A stretch of DNA of 38,349 bases from Bdellovibrionales bacterium. GTDB lineage: Bacteria; Bdellovibrionota; UBA1018; CAIMNF01. The notes below the pieces were generated by a model. The model was not told the origin of the DNA. It ran no database searches and saw only the letters and a list, made by a program, of their open reading frames with translations. A program made the translations under genes and the position numbers. The DNA is taken from the NCBI GenBank assembly GCA_018969905.1, contig JAGWXK010000012.1:1-38349 (forward strand), given 5' to 3'. How positions within the stretch are numbered: the first letter of the stretch is position 1; each line of letters starts with the position of its first letter. Shown here one piece after another: positions 4,969 through 37,736 of the stretch.

Positions 4969-7638
4969 TTATCTCCCGAGCTTCTCGAGCACGATTCCTT
5001 TTGCCGCATCAATTGCGGCCTGAAGCTGATCCACCCTGGTGCCCCCGGCTTGGGCAAAATCAGGCTTACCGCCGCCTTTTCCACCAAACTTGTCGGCAGA
5101 CCCCTTGATGATCTCACCCGCATGAACGCCGCTCACCTTCGACCCCACCGCAACGACAAGATATGGCTTCTCGCCATTCTCATTCACTTCGCGGATCCCG
5201 AGAATGGAAACACTGGCGGGCTCTTTTTGTTTCAGGCGATCCGCCATCTCGCGAAGCTTCTTCATCCCATCGGATGCGGACTCGACCACACCCGCGATCA
5301 CTTTCACACCCGATGATTCTTTTGCGGTCTTCAGCAGCTCTTCAATTTCGGCTCCCTGCTGGGACGCCTGGAGCTTCTCGATTTGTTTTCGAAGTTCGCG
5401 CTGCTCCTCCACCATCCGGTCGATCTTGTTTCCAATCTCATCCACCGAAGAGGCCTTCACCTGGTCGCGCAGGGTTTTCAGTTTTTGATCCTGATCGCGA
5501 AGGTACTGAAATGCGCCCTTTGAAGTGTAGGCGATGATCCTGCGAACGCCTGCCGCAATGCCGGCCTCGGATGCGATCTTGAACAAATGGATATCCGAGC
5601 TTTGATCGACGTGGGTTCCACCGCAAAGTTCGGTTGAATAGTCACCGACCGACACAACCCTGACCGCGTCTCCGTACTTTTCGCCAAAGAATGCGATTGC
5701 TCCCGCCTGAATCGCTTGGTCCTTGTTCATGACCTGTTTTTTGACCGCATCTCCTCGCCAGATTTTTTCATTGATGAGGTTCTCGACTTTTTGAAGCTCT
5801 TCCGGCGCAAGGGCCTGAAAGTGAGAAAAGTCAAAACGCAGAAGCTCCGGCGTGACCAAGGATCCGGCCTGCTTCACATGATTGCCAAGCACCGAACGAA
5901 GCGCCCACTGAAGCATGTGAGTAGCCGTATGGTTCCGCGCCGTGAGCGAACGAGTATCCGATTCGACGGTTTGTACCACTCGATCGCCCACTTTCAGGAT
6001 CCCGCGCTTTGGCTTAAGATACGCCACAATCAGTTCAGGCACCGGTCGCTGAACATCAAGGACTTCAGCCTCGAAATCGCCCTTCTCGGAACGCACGCGT
6101 CCGCGATCACCGGTTTGCCCGCCTGATTCTCCATAAAAAGGAGTTTTTGAGAACACCGCGAGAGTGAGCAGGGATCCATCTGCGGCCTGGGATGGAATCA
6201 CCGCAAGGGTCTCGCCCGTGGCCTCCAGGTGTTCATAGCCCACAAACTCGGGGAGCTTTCCTGCTTTCTTCAGCTGATCCGAAAGCTGGTACCACTCGGC
6301 CGAGAGCACCTCGTCTCCCGTGCCCTTCCAGTGCTTGCGCGATTCCTCGCGCTGCTTTTCCATGTGGGTCTCAAAGGCCTTTTCATCGACTGTGATTCCC
6401 CGCTCCTCGCAAATGGTGCGGGTCAAATCGAGTGGAAACCCGAAAGTATCGTAAAGAGTGAAGGCAACAGCACCCGAGAGGGTTTTCTTATCTCCAAGTT
6501 TTTTCAATTCTTCATCAAGAAGTCCAAGGCCGCGATCGAGCGTCTTGAAGAATTGTTCTTCTTCCGCCATCACCGCGCGTTCAATGAATGCACGCTTGTC
6601 GGTCAGATCCGGGAAGGCCTCTTTCATCTGGTCGATCACGAAACCGCAGCACTGGTGAAGGAAGGGGCCCGAGAAGCCTAGCTTCCTGCCGTGACGGATT
6701 GCGCGTCTCATGATCCGACGAAGAACATAGCCGCGGCCTTCGTTGGATGGCATCACACCATCTGAAATCAGAAAGGTCGTTGCCCGCGCATGATCGGCGA
6801 TCACTCGGAAGGAGAACACCGATTCGTCCTTGGTTTTTGGAAGGTAGGGCTTAGCCGCAAGTTTTGAGATTTTGCCAATGATGTCGACGAAGATGTCGGT
6901 GTCGTAATTGGTGTCGACATCTTGCAGGATCGACGCCAATCGCTCAAGACCCGCACCCGTATCGACCGAAGGTTTTGGGAGCGGATTCAGTTTGCCGCTT
7001 GCGTCGCGGTCGTACTGCATGAACACGAGGTTCCAGAACTCCATGAAGCGATCACAATCGCAGCCCATCTTACAGGTGGGCTTACCGCAGCCGTACTTCT
7101 CGCCTCGATCAATGAAGAGCTCCGTACAAGGACCACACGGACCCGTATCGCCCATGGCCCAGAAGTTGTCTTTTTCGCCGAAGCGATAAATCCGATCAAG
7201 CGGCACACCTTCCTGCTTGTGCCAGATTTCGGCAGCCTCATCATCGGTTTCAAAAACAGTCACATACAGGCGGTCTTTCGGGAGCTTTAGTTCCTTGGTG
7301 ACAAGCTCCCAGGCAAAATGAATGGCTTCTTTTTTGAAGTAATCCCCGAAAGAAAAATTCCCGAGCATTTCAAAAAAAGTATGGTGGCGCGCAGTGAAGC
7401 CCACATTCTCAAGATCGTTGTGCTTGCCACCGGCACGAACACATTTCTGAGAGGAAGAGGCTCGAGTGTAGGGACGCGGATCTTTTCCAAGAAACACATC
7501 CTTGAACTGGACCATGCCGGCGGTGGTGAACATCAAGGTCGGGTCGTTCGAGGGAACGAGCGAGGAACTGTCCACCACGGTGTGGCCGTTTTTCTTGAAA
7601 TAATCTAGGAAGATCTTACGGATTTGTGCGCCTGTCAT
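4969..7638 (-). CDS. alaS: Alanyl-tRNA synthetase
   Basis: Full-length AlaRS, 889 residues, the usual bacterial length. The class II catalytic core occupies residues 1 to about 240 (MFTTAGMVQFKDVFLG, TRASSSQKCVRAGGKHNDLENVG, NFSFGDYFK, DTGAGLERL). The editing domain has HTATH at 570-574 and CGGTH at 672-676, whose His and Cys residues bind zinc. The C-terminal C-Ala region ends in a Gly-rich GGKGGGKPDFAQAGG motif. A Cys-rich insert near residues 184-195 (CGKPTCKMGCDC) is a known variant in many bacteria. It charges tRNA-Ala and clears mischarged Ser/Gly. There is no convincing Shine-Dalgarno; a -10-like TAAGTT ends 9 nt before the ATG. The downstream binding-protein gene starts 4 nt after the stop. 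Confidence 0.98.
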   Translation of the reverse strand: MTGAQIRKIFLDYFKKNGHTVVDSSSLVPSNDPTLMFTTAGMVQFKDVFLGKDPRPYTRASSSQKCVRAGGKHNDLENVGFTARHHTFFEMLGNFSFGDYFKKEAIHFAWELVTKELKLPKDRLYVTVFETDDEAAEIWHKQEGVPLDRIYRFGEKDNFWAMGDTGPCGPCTELFIDRGEKYGCGKPTCKMGCDCDRFMEFWNLVFMQYDRDASGKLNPLPKPSVDTGAGLERLASILQDVDTNYDTDIFVDIIGKISKLAAKPYLPKTKDESVFSFRVIADHARATTFLISDGVMPSNEGRGYVLRRIMRRAIRHGRKLGFSGPFLHQCCGFVIDQMKEAFPDLTDKRAFIERAVMAEEEQFFKTLDRGLGLLDEELKKLGDKKTLSGAVAFTLYDTFGFPLDLTRTICEERGITVDEKAFETHMEKQREESRKHWKGTGDEVLSAEWYQLSDQLKKAGKLPEFVGYEHLEATGETLAVIPSQAADGSLLTLAVFSKTPFYGESGGQTGDRGRVRSEKGDFEAEVLDVQRPVPELIVAYLKPKRGILKVGDRVVQTVESDTRSLTARNHTATHMLQWALRSVLGNHVKQAGSLVTPELLRFDFSHFQALAPEELQKVENLINEKIWRGDAVKKQVMNKDQAIQAGAIAFFGEKYGDAVRVVSVGDYSTELCGGTHVDQSSDIHLFKIASEAGIAAGVRRIIAYTSKGAFQYLRDQDQKLKTLRDQVKASSVDEIGNKIDRMVEEQRELRKQIEKLQASQQGAEIEELLKTAKESSGVKVIAGVVESASDGMKKLREMADRLKQKEPASVSILGIREVNENGEKPYLVVAVGSKVSGVHAGEIIKGSADKFGGKGGGKPDFAQAGGTRVDQLQAAIDAAKGIVLEKLGR

Positions 7639-7647
7639 AAGGCAATC

Positions 7648-7676
7648 AACTTACTGGAGCCCTTCGGTCGGGGCAA
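7648..7676 (-). promoter_or_regulatory. Candidate promoter for alaS, leaderless-type
   Basis: Read on the minus strand: TTGCCC (7671-7676), a 17-bp spacer, TAAGTT (7648-7653), then 9 nt to the alaS ATG. A start site about 7 nt after the -10 box would leave almost no 5' leader, matching the absence of a Shine-Dalgarno. The -10 match is modest. Confidence 0.4.
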
Positions 7677-7711: not shown

Positions 7712-7740
7712 TTGCCCATTGCTCCCAGGTTGGTTAGACT
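7712..7740 (+). promoter_or_regulatory. Candidate promoter for the Mpo1-like gene, leaderless-type
   Basis: TTGCCC (7712-7717), a 17-bp spacer, TAGACT (7735-7740), then 6 nt to the ATG at 7747. Transcription would begin at or next to the A of the ATG. No Shine-Dalgarno precedes that ATG. Confidence 0.5.
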
Positions 7741-7746
7741 TGGCTC

Positions 7747-8214
7747 ATGACCACTCTTCCTACATCCGCTCTCATGATTTATTTCAAGGACTACGAACAG
7801 TATCACCGCACCAAAGGAAACAAGCTTACCCATTTTGTGGGAATCCCTGCAGTGATGTTTAGCCTCCTTGGACTGCTGTCGCATGTGGTTCTTTGGAGCC
7901 CCTCCGCTGACAGTCTTTTCCCGATCGACCTGGGAGTCATCCTGCTCCTTGCAGGCGCTGCATTTTCCCTCAAGGTGGATTGGAAGCTTGGAATTCCTTT
8001 CACCTTATTCTGCTACGCAAACTATCTTTGGGCGAGGCACCTCCCCTTGAACCTTCTCGTGGCAATTCAGGTCGTAGGATGGGTGTTCCAGCTTCTCGGG
8101 CATTTTATCTATGAAAAGAAGTCACCCGCATTCCTGACTTCCCTGGAACACATCTTCATCGGACCCATGTGGATTTTTTCATGGGTCATCGGCTACTACA
8201 AGCCAAGCACATGA
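7747..8214 (+). CDS. Mpo1-like / DUF962 membrane protein (putative 2-hydroxy fatty acid dioxygenase)
   Basis: 155 residues with the DUF962/Mpo1 hallmarks: DYEQYHRTKGNKLTHFVGIP near the N-terminus and GWVFQLLGHFIYEKKSPA near residue 120, carrying the conserved histidines expected to bind Fe(II). About four hydrophobic segments (residues 32-50, 59-75, 80-95 and 100-120) place it in the inner membrane. Yeast Mpo1 alpha-oxidises 2-hydroxy fatty acids; the bacterial role is unproven, so the function is by family only. The ATG at 7747 has no Shine-Dalgarno but sits at the predicted transcription start; the alternative is the ATG at 7774 (MIYFKDYE). Its stop overlaps the next start as ATGA, coupling the two genes. 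Confidence 0.85.
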   Translation: MTTLPTSALMIYFKDYEQYHRTKGNKLTHFVGIPAVMFSLLGLLSHVVLWSPSADSLFPIDLGVILLLAGAAFSLKVDWKLGIPFTLFCYANYLWARHLPLNLLVAIQVVGWVFQLLGHFIYEKKSPAFLTSLEHIFIGPMWIFSWVIGYYKPST

Positions 8215-10055: not shown

Positions 10056-10061
10056 TAGCCT
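10056..10061 (+). promoter_or_regulatory. Candidate -10 element for glyS, leaderless-type
   Basis: TAGCCT, preceded by TGTGC (extended -10 character), ends 7 nt before the ATG at 10069. No clear -35 box is seen. The spacing matches other first-gene starts in this window. Confidence 0.35.
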
Positions 10062-10068
10062 CGCCTTC

Positions 10069-11436
10069 ATGAGCGAAACACCAAACATTACAGCAGGCAA
10101 AGTCGAATCCAAAGAACTCGAGAGCTTTCAAGACCTCGTGTCCCTGTGCAAACGCCGGGGCTTTATTTTTCCTTCCTCTGAAATCTATGGCGGGATCGGT
10201 TCCTGCTGGGACTACGGACCGCTCGGAGTGCAGTTAAAACTCAACATCAAGGATTCCTGGTGGCGAGCCATGACCGATCGGGATGACGTCGAGGGCATCG
10301 ATGCCTCGATCCTCATGCACCCAAGAACCTGGGAAGCATCCGGGCACGTCGAAGGGTTTGTGGATCCGCTGGTCGATTGCAAAACCTGCAAGGGTCGGTT
10401 TCGTGCGGACAAACTCGAGCATGCAAACTGCGGCAAGAAGAGCTCGCTCAGACCCGGCCAACATGGCGAATGCCAGCTCACCGAACCCCGTCAGTTCAAT
10501 TTGATGTTCAAGACCTTCATGGGTCCGCTCGAAGACTCCGCGAGTGTCGTGTACCTCCGCCCCGAAACGGCGCAGGGGATTTTCGTAAACTTTGAAAACG
10601 TCCAACAGAGCTCACGCCAAAAGGTTCCTTTCGGGATCGCGCAAATCGGAAAAGCCTTCCGAAACGAGATCACCCCAGGGAACTTCATTTTCCGAACCCG
10701 CGAGTTCGAGCAAATGGAAATGCAATTCTTCGTGAAGCCCGGATCCGACATGGAGTGGTTTGAAAAGTGGAAGGAAACCCGCATCAACTGGCACCTTGCA
10801 AACGGACTTCGCAGATCAAAGCTTCGCTTTCATCAGCATGGACCGGGCGAGCTCGCCCACTATGCGCGCGCGGCCTTTGATGTGGAATATCAGTTTCCGA
10901 TCGGCTGGCAGGAAATCGAGGGGATCCACAACCGCTCTGATTTCGACCTAAAACGCCATCAAGAGTTCTCGGGCAAGAAATGCGAATACTTCGATGAGGC
11001 GGCCAAAGAAAAGTACATTCCTTACGTGATTGAAACCTCAGTGGGTTGTGATCGAGCCCTTCTTGCGACCCTTTGTGATGCCTATCGCCTTGAGGGCGAA
11101 CGAACCGTGCTGAAGCTTCATCCGAATCTTGCCCCCTACAAGGTGGCCGTGTTCCCTCTCATGAAAAAACCGGAACTCATGGAGCTGACCGATAAGGTGT
11201 ACGCGAATCTGAAGAAACACTTCCGTGCAACCTACGATGAGGGCGGAACCATCGGAAAGCGCTATCGCAGACAGGATGAGATCGGGACACCCTTCTGTGT
11301 GACCATCGATTACGATGGGCTCACAGATCAAACCGTCACCATCCGGGAGCGCGATGGCATGACCCAGGAGCGGATTCCTGCAGAGAAACTTGTGGCTTAC
11401 ATCACGGATAAGATGGCTGCCTGGAAGTCCGAGTAA
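10069..11436 (+). CDS. glyS: Glycyl-tRNA synthetase, single-chain (alpha2) type
   Basis: 455 residues starting at the ATG at 10069. The class II core has [67 protein letters not shown] and [19 protein letters not shown] Cys-containing insertion follows residue 100 ([15 protein letters not shown]). The C-terminal anticodon-binding domain begins near [14 protein letters not shown]. This is the homodimeric form that needs no separate alpha/beta subunits. It attaches glycine to tRNA-Gly in the cytosol. The frame is open to a GTG at 10006, but similarity starts after 10069. There is no Shine-Dalgarno. It ends at a strong bidirectional terminator. Confidence 0.97.
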
Positions 11437-14655: not shown

Positions 14656-15632
14656 AAGATCTTGTCGAGCGCGACCGCAAAAGAGCCAACCTTGAGCTTG
14701 GTTTCCACTCGAAGAAGATACCGATGCTCATCGACGGAAATCCACACTGTATTGTCGCGATTTTTCAATTCACCTTGTTCGTAGTTTGCCAGTTCATAAA
14801 CCCGGGCATCTCGATTCTTCCCCCCCGCATAAATGGTCTCGGTACGCAGATACCGGATCACGCTTTCCCAGGGTTTTCCATCCATTACAAAAGGCATCCG
14901 ATATTCACCCCCGGGAGCATCGGGGAGGGGCGCGACACGCAGAAAAAAAAGTGCAGAAAGGGGATCCTGAGAGAAGGGTTTGATCGTATAATTCTCCTTT
15001 TGCTCCTTGAAACCCTTTTCCACGTGGTCAACGCGATTCCAATACATGCTCTTATTTTTTTCCTGATCATAAAGTTCGATCACTTTTCTGGTTTGCTTGG
15101 ATTCATCCAGGTTCATCGTGAACCGATGTGAAAAAAATCCGTCGAAATCCCAAAACGATTCAATCGTATCGTTCACCCGGTATACGAGTTCAAAAAAACT
15201 CAAGGTCTTTGCCTTCGCACGCAAGGGATAAACCTTTCGATCTCCGATTTGCTTCAAAGGTAAGATCTCGGTTTGAAAGGTCGCCGCGGTAACCCCGAGG
15301 TAACGAAGGTCGTAACTCAGGCACTCCCCCACCTGAAAAGGCATGGGCTCGATTCGGCGAATCATCGGTACCTTGACAACCGGTTCAACGAGACTCTTAG
15401 CCTTATTCTTTCGTTTTGCCTTTTCCTTCGATGCTGATGGCGCCGGAGCAGGCGAAGGTGTCGCAGAGGGATCATCGATTTCCTTGATCTCGAATTGGGT
15501 CGCCACGTCAGGCGAGATCTCCTTACCAAGATCACCCTCATCAAACTTACGAAGGCTTGAAGTGGAACACGCAGAAAGAACGGCACATGCGTACAGCACC
15601 CATCGACGTCGGGCAATGAACTTGAGCATCAT
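14652..15632 (-). CDS. DUF3108 lipoprotein
   Basis: 326 residues starting MMLKFIARRRWVLYACAVLSAC, a lipoprotein signal with lipobox LSAC and Cys22. A low-complexity linker rich in Pro/Ala/Ser and then Lys follows (residues about 50-85). The DUF3108 domain spans the rest: VGECLSYDLRYLGVTAATFQ, YRVNDTIESFWDFDGFFSH, FTMNLDESKQTRKVIELYDQ and RYLLRVETKLKVGSFAVAL. Proteins of this family are periplasmic beta-structures of unsettled function. An outer-envelope role fits its place between lipid A and core genes. A TAGGCT element 7 nt before the ATG suggests a promoter inside the operon. The stop overlaps the waaF start. Confidence 0.83.
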   Translation of the reverse strand: MMLKFIARRRWVLYACAVLSACSTSSLRKFDEGDLGKEISPDVATQFEIKEIDDPSATPSPAPAPSASKEKAKRKNKAKSLVEPVVKVPMIRRIEPMPFQVGECLSYDLRYLGVTAATFQTEILPLKQIGDRKVYPLRAKAKTLSFFELVYRVNDTIESFWDFDGFFSHRFTMNLDESKQTRKVIELYDQEKNKSMYWNRVDHVEKGFKEQKENYTIKPFSQDPLSALFFLRVAPLPDAPGGEYRMPFVMDGKPWESVIRYLRTETIYAGGKNRDARVYELANYEQGELKNRDNTVWISVDEHRYLLRVETKLKVGSFAVALDKIL

Positions 15633-15639
15633 CTTAAAC

Positions 15640-15669
15640 AGCCTACGGCGTTGTGCCCCTTATTGTAAA
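15640..15669 (-). promoter_or_regulatory. Candidate internal promoter before the DUF3108 gene, leaderless-type
   Basis: Minus strand: TTTACA (15664-15669; five of six consensus positions), an 18-bp spacer, TAGGCT (15640-15645), then 7 nt to the ATG at 15632. It overlaps the end of the lpxB/lpxK gene. No Shine-Dalgarno precedes the ATG. Confidence 0.5.
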
Positions 15670-27842: not shown

Positions 27843-28260
27843 GGGTCGACTCCATAAGCTCAATCAAAACCCCACCCGCAGTGGCCGGATGAATGAAATT
27901 GATCCGCATGTTCTGCGCACCTTTTTTGGGAACCTCAAAGGTGAATCGAAAGCCCTCTTGCTTCAGGGTCTCGCAAAGTGAATCGAGCTTTCCGGATTCG
28001 ACCTGAAACGACAGGTGATGAATGCCAGGGCCTCTTTTTCCGATAAAGCGTGCAACAGATCCAGCCGGATCCACGACCTCGAGCAACTCCAAGTGCGGAG
28101 GCTCGCCCTGGAGGTTGAAAAAATGTACATTCACACCTTGATCCGGAACCATTTCGCTGATTCCCCGACCGATGCCCAAAATCCGAAAGAGCTTTTCCAA
28201 GGGAGAGCTTCCTGCTTCGGTGGCTATGCCGATGTGATTGAGAGTGATTTGAATAGACAT
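27832..28260 (-). CDS. mce: Methylmalonyl-CoA epimerase / glyoxalase-family protein
   Basis: 142 residues, two VOC beta-alpha-beta modules. Diagnostic are ITLNHIGIATEAGSSPLEKL, HLELLEVVDPAGSVARFIGK, RGPGIHHLSFQVE, NMRINFIHPATAGGVLIELM. The metal ligands are His in LNHIG, His in HHLSF and Glu in LIEL. It racemises methylmalonyl-CoA in propionate and odd-chain metabolism. No mutase is nearby, so another VOC function remains possible. The start is taken at 28260 (MSIQITLNHI). There is no Shine-Dalgarno, but TAGGCT ends 7 nt upstream. It is the first gene of an epimerase-rhomboid-methyltransferase unit. Confidence 0.87.
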   Translation of the reverse strand: MSIQITLNHIGIATEAGSSPLEKLFRILGIGRGISEMVPDQGVNVHFFNLQGEPPHLELLEVVDPAGSVARFIGKRGPGIHHLSFQVESGKLDSLCETLKQEGFRFTFEVPKKGAQNMRINFIHPATAGGVLIELMESTHAH

Positions 28261-28267
28261 GCCAGAG

Positions 28268-28296
28268 AGCCTAGCGAAAAAAAAAGGAGCCGTCAT
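28268..28296 (-). promoter_or_regulatory. Candidate promoter for the epimerase gene, leaderless-type
   Basis: Minus strand: ATGACG (28291-28296; four of six), a 17-bp spacer containing a nine-T run, TAGGCT (28268-28273), then 7 nt to the ATG at 28260. Confidence 0.5.
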
Positions 28297-28594
28297 CACC
28301 TCGCTGTACCCGGATTGACCTCCTCAGTCTGTGGTCTCTCCGAATTAGATGAAACGGCCCCCAGTCAAGTGCCTATGCCTTTGGTACCCACCAAAGCACC
28401 TCCAGCCTAGACGATATCCCTATCGGCTACACCAAGTGGAACTTGAGTGTTTTTTTTTATCACTGCAATGCAATGAAATTATGGGCAAAAACTCCATCTC
28501 TCCGACCCAAACTCCTTGGCTGTCGAGTGGCAAAATGAGAGTCATTCAATATTGGATTGACTCAGTCGGAAATGAGCTGTAAGATCCGCCCGCC
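28297..28594. other. Non-coding stretch upstream of the epimerase gene
   Basis: I see no convincing gene on either strand here. It holds a small hairpin (28379-28396), a run of nine T residues after an A-rich-poor segment near 28450, and the short repeat TGCAATGCAATG near 28465-28476. It may contain plus-strand promoter sequence for the following genes. Confidence 0.4.
28379..28396. repeat. Short perfect inverted repeat
   Basis: CTTTGGT and ACCAAAG arms of 7 bp surround an ACCC loop. No T-run follows, so it is not an obvious terminator. Confidence 0.4.
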
Positions 28595-29885: not shown

Positions 29886-31121
29886 CTATCGGAGCTTCCA
29901 GCGGTCAAACCGAGTCAAAAGCAGAAGGCCTGGTGCCATCAGGGAAATCGCAATCAAAAAATACATCTCCCATCCCACGTGCTCCGCAAGGTAGCCGCTC
30001 GGAGGACCCGCTAACACCCGGGTCAAAGCCATCAGACTCGTGAGAAGAGCGTATTGCGTTGCCGTGAACTTGGGATTGCAGAGCATCATGAGAAATGCAG
30101 AATATGCGGCAGTCCCCATGCCACTCAATAAGTTTTCGGTAGTGATTGCGGCAACCATCAAGGGATAATTCTTTCCAAAGTGTGCCAAGGCTACAAAGGT
30201 CAGATTTCCAAGGCCCTGCAGAATCCCGAAGGTCCAGAGTGATTTCTTGACCCCAAGACGGGTCATCACAATTCCTCCGGCAAAAGTCCCAACCAGGGTC
30301 GCAATCATTCCGACCCCTTTGTTCACAACCCCGATATCGGTTTTGGAAAATCCGAGCTGAAGCATGAACGTTGTTGTAAATGCAAGAGCAACCACAACAT
30401 CCATCTTGTAAAGGATGATGAAAGCAAGAACCTCGTACGATCCCTTTCGTTTGAAAAAATCCACCAAGGGCAGCACCACTGCCTCCGCCAGGGACCGGGG
30501 AGGTGTCTCGCGAATTTCCGGCTCGGGCGCAAGAAACACTGTGGTAAGTGCGCCAATTCCCATCGAAAGCGCCATCCAGAAATATACCCTGCTCCACGGC
30601 ATTCGATCCGCAAGAATCAAGGCGAACGCACCACTCAAGATCATCGCAATCCGATAGCCCATGGTATATGTCCCAGCTCCAAGTCCGTACTCCTCCGGTT
30701 TCAGGACCTCGGTGCGCCATGCATCCACCACGATGTCCTGACTTGCACTGAAAAATGCCACCAAGAATGCAATCACCGCCATTTGTACCGGGGAGATGGC
30801 AGGATGGGTGACCGCCATTCCAACAATTCCGAGGATCAACAGGATTTGCGTGATCAAAATCCACCCTCTTCGACGCCCAAAGAAAGGCGGAACATATCGG
30901 TCCATCACCGCGGACCAAAGAAACTTGAGGGTGTATGGTGTTCCAACCAGCGAAAAAATTCCGATCGTGGTCAGGTCAACTTTTTCCTGTGTAAGCCAGG
31001 CCTGAAGAGTGCTTCCAGTCAAAGCAAGTGGAATTCCCGAAGAAAATCCAAGGATCAGGGTCACACCCATCCGTCGATTTCCAAGTACATGAAGAAGATT
31101 CCTGAAAAATGAGTCCTGCAT
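29886..31121 (-). CDS. ampG: AmpG-family muropeptide permease (MFS)
   Basis: 411 residues with about 12 hydrophobic segments. The AmpG signature is strong: LILGFSSGIPLALTGSTLQA, IGIFSLVGTPYTLKFLWSAV, MDRYVPPFFGRRRGWI, ASQDIVVDAWRTEVL and GAGTYTMGYRIAMILSGAFA. The protein imports GlcNAc-anhydro-muropeptides from the periplasm for peptidoglycan recycling. No ampD, nagZ, beta-lactamase or AmpR gene is adjacent, so the role here is probably recycling or, in a predatory lineage, uptake of prey wall fragments (inference). No Shine-Dalgarno; a TACGGT element ends 6 nt before the ATG. Confidence 0.92.
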   Translation of the reverse strand: MQDSFFRNLLHVLGNRRMGVTLILGFSSGIPLALTGSTLQAWLTQEKVDLTTIGIFSLVGTPYTLKFLWSAVMDRYVPPFFGRRRGWILITQILLILGIVGMAVTHPAISPVQMAVIAFLVAFFSASQDIVVDAWRTEVLKPEEYGLGAGTYTMGYRIAMILSGAFALILADRMPWSRVYFWMALSMGIGALTTVFLAPEPEIRETPPRSLAEAVVLPLVDFFKRKGSYEVLAFIILYKMDVVVALAFTTTFMLQLGFSKTDIGVVNKGVGMIATLVGTFAGGIVMTRLGVKKSLWTFGILQGLGNLTFVALAHFGKNYPLMVAAITTENLLSGMGTAAYSAFLMMLCNPKFTATQYALLTSLMALTRVLAGPPSGYLAEHVGWEMYFLIAISLMAPGLLLLTRFDRWKLR

Positions 31122-31127
31122 GGAAGA

Positions 31128-31133
31128 ACCGTA
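31128..31133 (-). promoter_or_regulatory. Candidate -10 element for ampG, leaderless-type
   Basis: TACGGT on the minus strand ends 6 nt before the ATG at 31121. The -35 region 17 bp further up (GTGAGT) is poor. Confidence 0.3.
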
Positions 31134-31156: not shown

Positions 31157-31612
31157 TCATGAGGATCGGTTTCGAAGGGTGCTGAAAAAGTCCTTCAGGA
31201 CTTTCGAGCATTCAGCCATGGGAGAATAAATCACTTCAAAACGATGATTCAATTTCGGGTGATCGTGAACCCCGAAACCAAGGCAAATGGCTCCGCCTTT
31301 TTCATCTTTTGCTCCATAAACCACTTTTCGAACCCGGGCCTGCTGACAGGCCGCCAGGCACATGGGACATGGCTCCAAGGTCACATAAAGATCACAATCC
31401 ACAAGCCTCCATGACCCCAAAGCCTGCGATGCACCCCGAATGGCCTCCATTTCAGCATGTCCCAGAGGATCCTGCATGGCCTCCCTTGAGTTGGATCCCC
31501 GTCCCACGATTTTTCCCTCGTGAACCAACACGGCACCCACGGGAACTTCCCCTCGGGATCCGGCCTCAATGGCAAGCCTCAGCGCTTCAAGAAGGTAAGG
31601 CTGTGTTTCCAC
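31157..31612 (-). CDS. tadA: tRNA-specific adenosine deaminase TadA
   Basis: 151 residues from a GTG with AAAGGAG 7 nt upstream. The zinc deaminase residues are present in GHAEMEAIRGA and LEPCPMCLAACQQARVRKVV. GEVPVGAVLVHEGKIVGRG and GAKDEKGGAI match TadA. It converts A34 of tRNA-Arg to inosine and is normally essential. The 3' part of the PilZ gene overlaps its start by 26 bp. It is followed by ampG after 35 bp on the same strand. A guanine deaminase is a less likely alternative. Confidence 0.93.
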   Translation of the reverse strand: METQPYLLEALRLAIEAGSRGEVPVGAVLVHEGKIVGRGSNSREAMQDPLGHAEMEAIRGASQALGSWRLVDCDLYVTLEPCPMCLAACQQARVRKVVYGAKDEKGGAICLGFGVHDHPKLNHRFEVIYSPMAECSKVLKDFFSTLRNRSS

Positions 31613-32321
31613 CCGAAGACTCCTTTTGCTGATTGAAATACTTGATGAGAACCCTGACTTTTCTTCTCAGGGCCCTGTCGAACTCCCCGAACTGGATCCC
31701 AATTCCTTTTGGATGGGTGACGGTGCTCTTTGCATTCCAAACCACCTTTCCGGAAAGCACCAGTTCCTGTCCATACGCATTGATTCGGACCTGGATCGGA
31801 TCATGAAGACGGAAATCCAATGGCGTTTTGATGAAGCATCCGCGTGGATTCAAATCCAGAAGCTGCCCTTTGGAGGCGGGAACACCGCTCTGGGTCGGAG
31901 TCAGATCCACGGCAAGGTGGTGGATCCCGGCGATTCCACTCTCCCACCAATTGATCTTTGGAAAGAGATAAGGAACCCTGATCTCCCGTGAGACGATCCG
32001 CAAAAGCAAGTACTGGAGGGTCATTACCAAAACAAAGGCAAATCCTTTGAAATCCGAATTGCTGTGATTGACCAAAATGAGCGCATTGAAATAGGCAGCA
32101 AGCACTTGAGCAATGCCGAAAGTGTACCAAGCCCAATGATGAAACGAGCGTAGACCGATTCCACTCATCACCCAGAACAGCGAGGCGAGGTAAAAGAGGG
32201 GTGAAAGAGCGATTGACACCACTCCCCGAATCGGTAGCTGAAACACCAACGCGGAAAGAAGTGGATGAAGGATCGGAAACCCCACCATGAAAATCGTTAA
32301 GATGCGAAGAGTGCGTGACAT
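31587..32321 (-). CDS. Membrane protein with degenerate C-terminal PilZ domain
   Basis: 244 residues from the ATG at 32321 (AGGA 6 nt upstream); longer in-frame starts exist. Residues about 5-125 hold four hydrophobic segments (ILTIFMVGFPILHPLLSALV, VVSIALSPLFYLASLFWVMS, WAWYTFGIAQVLAAYFNALI, GFAFVLVMTLQYLLLRIV). Residues about 155-235 form a PilZ-like beta-barrel (GQLLDLNPRGCFIKTPLDFR, LVLSGKVVWNAKSTVTHPKG, IGIQFGEFD). PilZ domains bind cyclic di-GMP through RxxxR and [D/N]xSxxG. Here the second motif is DLNPRG (Ser replaced by Asn) and no RxxxR is visible, so ligand binding is doubtful. It overlaps tadA. Confidence 0.8.
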   Translation of the reverse strand: MSRTLRILTIFMVGFPILHPLLSALVFQLPIRGVVSIALSPLFYLASLFWVMSGIGLRSFHHWAWYTFGIAQVLAAYFNALILVNHSNSDFKGFAFVLVMTLQYLLLRIVSREIRVPYLFPKINWWESGIAGIHHLAVDLTPTQSGVPASKGQLLDLNPRGCFIKTPLDFRLHDPIQVRINAYGQELVLSGKVVWNAKSTVTHPKGIGIQFGEFDRALRRKVRVLIKYFNQQKESSGGNTALPS

Positions 32322-32352
32322 CACCATTCCTGTCGCATTTTGGAGCATCTCT

Positions 32353-32381
32353 TTGACGGAGTCACGGGAATTTCGTAGGCT
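32353..32381 (+). promoter_or_regulatory. Strong candidate promoter for the methyltransferase-rsgA unit, leaderless-type
   Basis: TTGACG (32353-32358; five of six), a 17-bp spacer, TAGGCT (32376-32381), then exactly 6 nt to the GTG at 32388. Transcription would begin at the start codon. Confidence 0.6.
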
Positions 32382-32387
32382 CACGGG

Positions 32388-33107
32388 GTGTACACGGCTG
32401 GGACCCACAGCATTTTCCGGTTCTTGTTTCGCTTTTACCCCATGGTCGTGCTCCTGCTGGCCGCACTCCCCGGCTCAGGAATGGCGGAATCAACCACCGG
32501 AGTCCCGTCACCTGATTTAGCAACGTTTGAGGCGATTACAGGAGAAAGCCCGGAGGAAGACCACTCCGCCTGGGACCGTTTTTATAAAAAAAAGAACCAC
32601 GCCTTTGGCAAAGAGGCAATCGGGTTTCTCAAGGAAAACATAAAGATTCTTCCGAAGGGTCGTGCGTTCGTTCCTGCCATGGGAGAAGGAAGGAACGCGA
32701 TCTTTCTGGCCCGACACGGCTTCCGGGTCGAGGGGGTTGATCTCTCACAAGTTGCCGTTGACCGTGCCCTTCAGGAGGCGAAAGCAAAGAAAACGTTTAT
32801 CAAGGGCATCGTCGGAGATCTATTCGAATTTCCTTATCCAAAAGAAGCCTATGATTTCATCCTCGTCTCGCTTTTTTATTCCGAGCGCCTGCTCCCAAAA
32901 TTGAAGAATGCATTGAAAAAAGGCGGTTACATCATGATTTATCTCAAGAGGGATACAGGCAGACAGTCCACGAGCCTTGTGCCTGATGACTTTGCAGTGA
33001 AAGCTGGCGCTCTTAAGGCCGCTCTGGTTGATTTTGAAACCCTGATCTATCGTGAATTTATTGAACAAAACATGGATATGATTGCAATCCTCGCGAGGAA
33101 AAAATGA
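32388..33107 (+). CDS. SAM-dependent methyltransferase with N-terminal signal-like segment
   Basis: 239 residues from a GTG that sits at the predicted transcription start; the alternative is the ATG at 32442. The N-terminus has basic residues and then MVVLLLAALPGSGMA, a good Sec signal with cleavage before ESTTG. The rest is a TehB/thiopurine-type methyltransferase: DHSAWDRFYKKKNHAFGKEA, RAFVPAMGEGRNAIFLARHG (motif I), FRVEGVDLSQVAVDRALQEA, IVGDLFEFPYPKEAYDFILV and LKKGGYIMIYLKRD. An exported SAM enzyme would lack its cofactor in the periplasm, so the segment may instead be a membrane anchor. It overlaps rsgA by 4 bp (ATGA). Confidence 0.8.
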   Translation: MYTAGTHSIFRFLFRFYPMVVLLLAALPGSGMAESTTGVPSPDLATFEAITGESPEEDHSAWDRFYKKKNHAFGKEAIGFLKENIKILPKGRAFVPAMGEGRNAIFLARHGFRVEGVDLSQVAVDRALQEAKAKKTFIKGIVGDLFEFPYPKEAYDFILVSLFYSERLLPKLKNALKKGGYIMIYLKRDTGRQSTSLVPDDFAVKAGALKAALVDFETLIYREFIEQNMDMIAILARKK

Positions 33108-37140: not shown

Positions 37141-37724
37141 TACTTGAGGGCTCCCTCGATTGCCTTCACAACCTCGGGACTCTCTGGAGTCACACTGGAG
37201 CGGAAACGGGCAATCACCTTGCCTTCTTTTGAAATCAAAAACTTCTCGAAGTTCCAACCCACTTCGCTCGGGCCACGAACGTTCCCGGGCTCATTCTTGA
37301 TGAGCCAGTCATAGAGCGGCTGCTTCATGGAACCTGAAACGGGATTCTTCTCAAAAAGCGGAAAACTCACCTTGTACTTTGTTTCGCAGAAGCTCTTGAT
37401 GTCCTTGGCGCTGCCCGGCTCCTGAGCACCAAAGTCATTGCTTGGGAACGCGAGCACCTCAAAACCTTTTGGTTGATATCGTTGATAGATGGTTTGCAGT
37501 CCCTGATACTGCGGGGTGTAGCCACATTTCGAAGCGGTGTTCACTACAAGCAACACCTTCCCCTTGTAGGCCGAGAAATTAACCGGGACTCCTGCAAGCG
37601 TATTCGCCTTGAAATCATGAAATGAGGTTGGACCGGTTGCAGCGAAGGAACCGGCGAACGGAATGCCGGAAAAAACAGAGAGGAAAAGAACCAAAAGTCT
37701 ACGGGAAATTGATTTGTGTTTCAT
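37140..37724 (-). CDS. Periplasmic glutathione peroxidase-family protein
   Basis: 194 residues. A signal peptide (basic MKHKSISRR, hydrophobic core, cleavage near GSFA) precedes a GPx fold: KVLLVVNTASKCGYTPQYQG with peroxidatic Cys67, LAFPSNDFGAQEPGSAKDIK, SFCETKYKVSFPLFEKNPVS with a likely resolving Cys113, and VGWNFEKFLISKEGKVIARF. The Gln and Trp/Asn of the catalytic tetrad are present. Such two-Cys enzymes usually work with thioredoxin-like donors rather than glutathione. Export suggests detoxification of peroxides in the periplasm. It heads the unit gpx-msrBA-CBS, and TAGGTT ends 6 nt before the ATG. Confidence 0.92.
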   Translation of the reverse strand: MKHKSISRRLLVLFLSVFSGIPFAGSFAATGPTSFHDFKANTLAGVPVNFSAYKGKVLLVVNTASKCGYTPQYQGLQTIYQRYQPKGFEVLAFPSNDFGAQEPGSAKDIKSFCETKYKVSFPLFEKNPVSGSMKQPLYDWLIKNEPGNVRGPSEVGWNFEKFLISKEGKVIARFRSSVTPESPEVVKAIEGALK

Positions 37725-37730
37725 GGGTCG

Positions 37731-37736
37731 AACCTA
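37731..37736 (-). promoter_or_regulatory. Candidate -10 element for the gpx-msrBA-CBS unit, leaderless-type
   Basis: TAGGTT on the minus strand ends 6 nt before the ATG at 37724. No good -35 box is seen, and the preceding gene ends only 10 bp further up, so read-through is also possible. Confidence 0.3.

Follow-up and report, generated by a model that had tools for sequence, protein, structure and literature searches.

A gene on the forward strand of the 38,349 nt stretch of Bdellovibrionales DNA analysed here (the window, one contig of a 2.73 Mb draft genome in 180 contigs) begins with GTG at position 32388, only 6 nt after a TAGGCT hexamer that itself lies 17 bp downstream of TTGACG, and this raises the question of whether its message has a leader at all. 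The usual start point of a sigma-70 promoter with six or seven bases between the -10 box and the start codon is the first base of that codon, and such a message is therefore without a leader. The initial annotation proposed leaderless transcription of this kind for many genes of the window, and three features of the sequence argue for it: a peak of -10 boxes at a gap of 6-7 nt before start codons, a peak of -35 matches at a 17 bp spacer, and the conservation of -10 boxes and start codons amid diverged bases. We consider it very probable that ordinary sigma-70-type promoters are here set so that the mRNA begins with the start codon, or with at most two bases ahead of it, and is leaderless.

The promoter in this arrangement would consist of TTGAC, a spacer of 17-18 bp and TANNNT with a mild preference for TAGGCT or TAGACT, and RNA polymerase would begin transcription on the A or G of the start codon or at most two bases ahead of it. 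An mRNA of this kind has therefore no room for a Shine-Dalgarno (SD) sequence. As in Actinobacteria and Deinococcota, intact 70S ribosomes carrying initiator tRNA would presumably translate it; both where transcription starts and how the message is translated are what we infer. Approximately 14-21% of the unit-first genes in the clade would use this arrangement, with operon-internal genes using SD sites, and a further promoter upstream, giving a message with a leader, may coexist with the one at gap 6-7.

Samples and methods

The closest relatives of the source are metagenome-assembled 'Bdellovibrionales bacterium' genomes whose site names resemble those of reservoirs and lakes, pointing to freshwater; the amino-acid identity of the transporter encoded at 31121 is 94% and 91% in the closest genomes and 72-74% in more distant cousins. 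The DNA sampled comprised approximately 0.70 Mb of the source's own genome, 0.40 Mb of a sister genome and 0.33 Mb of three cousins, with 0.40 Mb of Bdellovibrio bacteriovorus for comparison and 250 kb each of Escherichia coli K-12 and Deinococcus deserti plasmid 1 as negative and positive controls respectively. Gene starts in these samples were called with a purpose-written, non-standard ab initio caller, which missed tadA.

A counting test tallied, for every gap between 0 and 40, the genes with TANNNT at that distance from a plausible start. In addition, a mixture model assigned starts to SD, -10 or neither class, with the -10 gap free between 0 and 35 nt and the start picked jointly with coding potential. 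A free -10 matrix was rejected owing to its drift to A-rich motifs in first genes, and following this drift the ends of the -10 box were fixed in the final model and the gap alone was left free. Among genes lying 31-100 nt after a neighbour, the free-matrix model recovered TAGGAT at gaps 6-7 unaided.

Promoters of the window

All eight of the elements listed in the initial annotation (-35, spacer, -10 and gap, as far as quoted) are present in the window with the spacings that it gave, and the sister genome has every one of the eight -10 boxes in front of the corresponding start, several of the spacers and flanks having diverged. At 32388 the -35 TTGACG (32353-32358, plus strand) and the -10 TAGGCT (32376-32381, plus strand) are identical in three species, and the gene that follows (32388-33107, plus strand) encodes a methyltransferase domain (Pfam). 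They belong to a block of approximately 45 nt (32340-32382), reaching from before the -35 to the first base after the -10, that is identical in the source, its sister and the genome L003; all three species retain GTG at gap 6, while the intervening bases and the signal-peptide-like N terminus diverge. The same block also falls inside the reading frame of a divergent PilZ-domain gene (31587-32408, minus strand), to which its conservation may be partly owed, and it may also be a shared divergent promoter or operator.

The promoter TTGCCC-17-TAGACT (7712-7740, plus strand) lies 6 nt before the ATG of an Mpo1-like gene (Pfam) at 7747, and in the sister genome its -35 and -10 are kept and its spacer has diverged. 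ATGACG-17-TAGGCT (28268-28296, minus strand) precedes the ATG at 28260 of a glyoxalase-family gene (Pfam) by 7 nt, the bases after the -10 having diverged between the two genomes. Approximately 58 nt upstream of this start (28268-28330, minus strand), including a T run, are identical in the sister up to the -10, and this stretch could be a terminator or a regulatory element. Class II aminoacyl-tRNA synthetase (Pfam) is encoded from an ATG at 10069, 7 nt after TAGCCT (10056-10061, plus strand).

The initial annotation placed these promoters at the first genes of transcription units, which holds for five of the eight; the genes at 15632, 31121 and 37724 are not unit-first by position, a co-directional gene ending 27, 35 and 21 nt upstream, respectively. 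Each of these three instead carries a promoter of its own within a gene cluster, in or overlapping the short intergenic space. At 15632, a DUF3108 gene (Pfam), the promoter TTTACA-18-TAGGCT (15640-15669, minus strand; 7 nt before the ATG) overlaps the end of the upstream gene. The gene ending upstream of 31121 is tadA, and the MFS/AmpG-like transporter at 31121 is preceded at 6 nt by TACGGT (31128-31133, minus strand); TANNNT is found exactly 6 nt before its ATG in six genomes, down to cousins with 72% protein identity. The glutathione peroxidase family gene at 37724 has TAGGTT (37731-37736, minus strand) 6 nt before its ATG, and its homologue in the sister genome has TAGGAT at gap 7.

The leaderless label fits the cases at gap 6-7 but not, in the strict sense, the alanyl-tRNA synthetase gene (alaS) at 7638, where TTGCCC-17-TAAGTT (7648-7676, minus strand) lies 9 nt before the ATG and a leader of about 2 nt is predicted. 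A second, smaller peak of TANNNT is seen at gap 9 in the clade samples (13 cases, that of 7638 being one example), and none of the 13 is accounted for by a near-cognate start at gap 6; this points to a subclass whose leaders are about 2 nt long.

Seven of the 40 tabulated starts of the window have TANNNT at 6-7 nt, against 0.68 expected from the average for a pair of other gaps (Poisson P = 8e-6). None of these seven genes carries an SD sequence, as had been claimed, and a check of the sequence confirms the SD sites described for lpxA, the glycosyltransferase gene, lolD, tadA and trxB. Some of the 40 starts were supplied in the initial annotation, and the genome samples are therefore the cleaner test.

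Position and architecture of the -10 boxes

In the genome samples, counts of TANNNT split by operon position and set against shuffled sequence give the sharp peak at 6-7 nt that leaderless transcription had been expected to leave; it applies to first genes without an SD and is seen independently in the three clade samples. Observed and expected numbers of genes at this gap are 37 and 17.2 in the source's own genome (P = 2e-5), 27 and 9.6 in the sister (P = 3e-6) and 31 and 9.0 in the cousins (P = 8e-9); the excess in the B. bacteriovorus sample (24 against 20.4) is not significant. The mixture model places 13.8%, 16.9% and 21.0% of unit-first genes of the three samples in the gap 6-7 class, percentages that are rough in absolute terms because strict TANNNT was demanded, and on the same rough scale the class takes in 15.1% of genes 31-100 nt after a neighbour and 4.8% of internal genes. 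For first genes of B. bacteriovorus, E. coli and D. deserti plasmid 1 the corresponding estimates are 5.5%, 2.7% and 13.1%, and shuffling of the upstream sequences reduces the class to 1.9% (maximum 4.1%). Approximately 43% of the first genes have an SD-led start, as do 76% of the internal ones. The leaderless signature is thus that of a minority of first genes, and part of the approximately 5% among internal genes is due to chance or wrong starts.

The -35 region had no role in picking the -10 boxes. Matches to TTGACA nevertheless peak at a 17 bp spacer, with a mean of 2.76 of six positions against about 1.5 at most other spacings, and matches of at least four of six are found in 28% of cases at this spacer, with a shoulder at 18 bp, as against mostly 0-6% elsewhere; the boxes are therefore sigma-70-type promoters. 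This peak is left unexplained if the TANNNT excess simply reflects composition or in-frame stops just upstream of ORFs, a very improbable account which, although TAG and TAA are stop codons and gaps 6 and 9 place them in frame, also has to contend with an equal peak at the out-of-frame gap 7, the lack of one at gaps 3, 12 and 15, the inclusion of TAC and TAT boxes and the loss of the peak on shuffling. In-frame stops as the source of the TAG and TAA boxes were ruled out by the gap-7 peak together with the -35 spacing.

For the occurrence of SD sequences, starts were set by coding potential and codon type alone, with no motif. An SD core was found at 8 of 75 starts (11%) with TANNNT at gap 6-7, compared with 185 of 597 other first or near-first starts (31%; P = 1e-4) and 174 of 348 internal starts (50%; P = 7e-11). 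By our own estimate a search for three tetramers over 13 nt has a chance hit rate of approximately 11%, and the frequency of SD cores at gap 6-7 starts is about this level.

Alternative explanations

The best-surviving alternative, which we nevertheless regard as improbable, is that the start codons have been mis-assigned, the true starts lying downstream so that normal promoters, short leaders and SD sequences would be restored. The calls were made ab initio, and in several of the genes additional in-frame start codons follow; the first in-frame methionine after the GTG at 32388 falls within the stretch resembling a signal peptide. Against this, no ATG is shared there among the three species that keep the gap-6 GTG, and at 7747 the first codons already vary between species mainly at third positions. 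Downstream starts would moreover give no sharp peak at 6-7 nt, nor do they sit well with the codons found at that spacing: among 77 selected starts there are 68 ATG, nine GTG and no TTG, a strong preference for ATG. Counting against the leaderless reading, a pyrimidine at -1, expected to promote initiation precisely on the start codon, is no commoner at the selected starts than at SD starts.

Somewhat less probable again is that the promoters are real but that transcription starts further downstream of the -10, or that the RNA is processed, so that the mRNA would begin inside the gene or be poorly translated, as with decay or regulatory promoters. Such promoters do not account for the joint conservation of spacing and start codon, which extends to essential genes such as those for aminoacyl-tRNA synthetases. 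The leaderless reading is favoured further by conservation at its spacing: between the source's own genome and its sister, TANNNT is kept in 16 of 18 cases at gap 6-7 and in 70 of 108 at gaps 10-45 (P = 0.03), and within the cousins the corresponding figures are 26 of 26 and 70 of 90 (P = 0.004).

Relation to known leaderless systems

The mechanism proposed here, leaderless transcription from sigma-70-type promoters, is already known; what would be new is a lineage with substantial leaderless expression, commoner than expectations based on E. coli. In Deinococcota, leaderless genes have a -10 motif adjoining the ORF (PMC12340547, PMC3160421), and the two groups share a TANNNT box some 6-7 nt ahead of the start codon, the lack of an SD and an optional -35 at 17-18 bp. 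By the same yardstick, 13% of first genes of D. deserti plasmid 1 and 14-21% in the present clade are of this type, although in the latter the -10 leans to TAGGCT or TAGACT and a -35 is often present. Whereas 5' ends and reporters have been tested in Deinococcota, the architecture, spacing, SD depletion, start-codon preference, conservation and spread described here are read from the sequence. Actinobacteria such as Mycobacterium tuberculosis likewise have the -10 directly before ATG or GTG, with SD-led genes alongside, but belong to another phylum, and their leaderless starts have been mapped experimentally (PMC3898074).

Relatives of Bdellovibrio were formerly classed with the delta-proteobacteria. 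In that group, the nearest of the older taxa, leaderless genes were predicted in eight of 33 genomes with a mean of 15.8% (Zheng et al. 2011; PMC3160421), a prediction of the same type and a similar share, made in a main text in which no Bdellovibrio is named (PMC3160421); the present lineage is known here from metagenome-assembled genomes only. According to GeneMarkS-2, 21.6% of bacterial species are predicted to use leaderless genes (PMC9581028), and with the delta-proteobacterial predictions (PMC3160421) this softens the view that frequent use in this type of Gram-negative would be notable. The nearest organism with mapped starts is B. bacteriovorus, in whose genome the leaderless-type signal is weaker; the map gave a FliA-type consensus, TTAAG-N16-CCGATA, for attack-phase promoters, and leaderless mRNAs are absent from the text of that paper (PMC3627812). 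We found no report of leaderless use in the Bdellovibrio group in the literature searched, most subscription papers being outside the search.

A Gram-negative lineage related to predatory bacteria would join the groups that rely appreciably on leaderless messages, and gene callers that consider only SD sequences will misplace starts in it. The response to some antibiotics that target initiation also differs for leaderless messages (PMC9581028).

Spread across the phylum

To follow the signature in whole genomes we used the pattern TTGAC-N17..19-TANNNT-N6,7-ATG, with the same pattern at gap 12-13 as a spacing control. The counts at the two gaps are 17 and 4 in the window's genome, 200 and 53 in twelve genomes of the genus, and 634 and 179 in 40 relatives, 39 of which show the same direction. 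In a sample of the phylum they are 461 and 137 in the window's own order and 953 and 395 in 84 genomes of other classes, where the families range from 1.2-fold upward; B. bacteriovorus has 12 and 2, and five alpha- and gamma-proteobacteria combined have 6 and 4. A reversed-pattern control (953 against 712) would have the rest of the phylum almost unenriched, and it was set aside because it is composition-dependent, the spacing control giving 953 against 395. The leaderless-type signature is therefore not private to the genus but graded across the phylum, with a signal that is weaker in the phylum at large, and because of this gradation close relatives could be compared to trace how leaderless use was gained or lost. 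A tentative proposal, which we hold somewhat more doubtful than probable, is that leaderless initiation is ancient in Bdellovibrio-like bacteria and common to the whole phylum, that it is most pronounced in the window's order, where its frequency would be about that in D. deserti plasmid 1, and that the transcript map made for the model predator missed it.

Individual genomes with a pronounced excess at gap 6-7 over gap 12-13 include a Deltaproteobacteria LBMAG bin (G058, bin1; 16 against 1) and a Myxococcales metagenome-assembled genome (G056; 10 against 2). The element TTGAC-N18-TATTATTCTAGAA-(N)TATGGAAATG recurs across families of the order (for example at G001:C1:610137-610180 and G034:C1:575886-575929); it has a palindrome, TTCTA..TAGAA, surrounding the -10 and immediately preceding ATG, and resembles a leaderless gene whose -10 is covered by an operator. 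Several genomes of the genus also share a strongly conserved promoter, TTGACTCGCCCTTTCATTCTCAGTAGCCTTTTC..TAACAAATG, that lies 12 nt before ATG (for example at G000:C24:22140-22183, G007:C2:186666-186709 and G014:C183:734-777).
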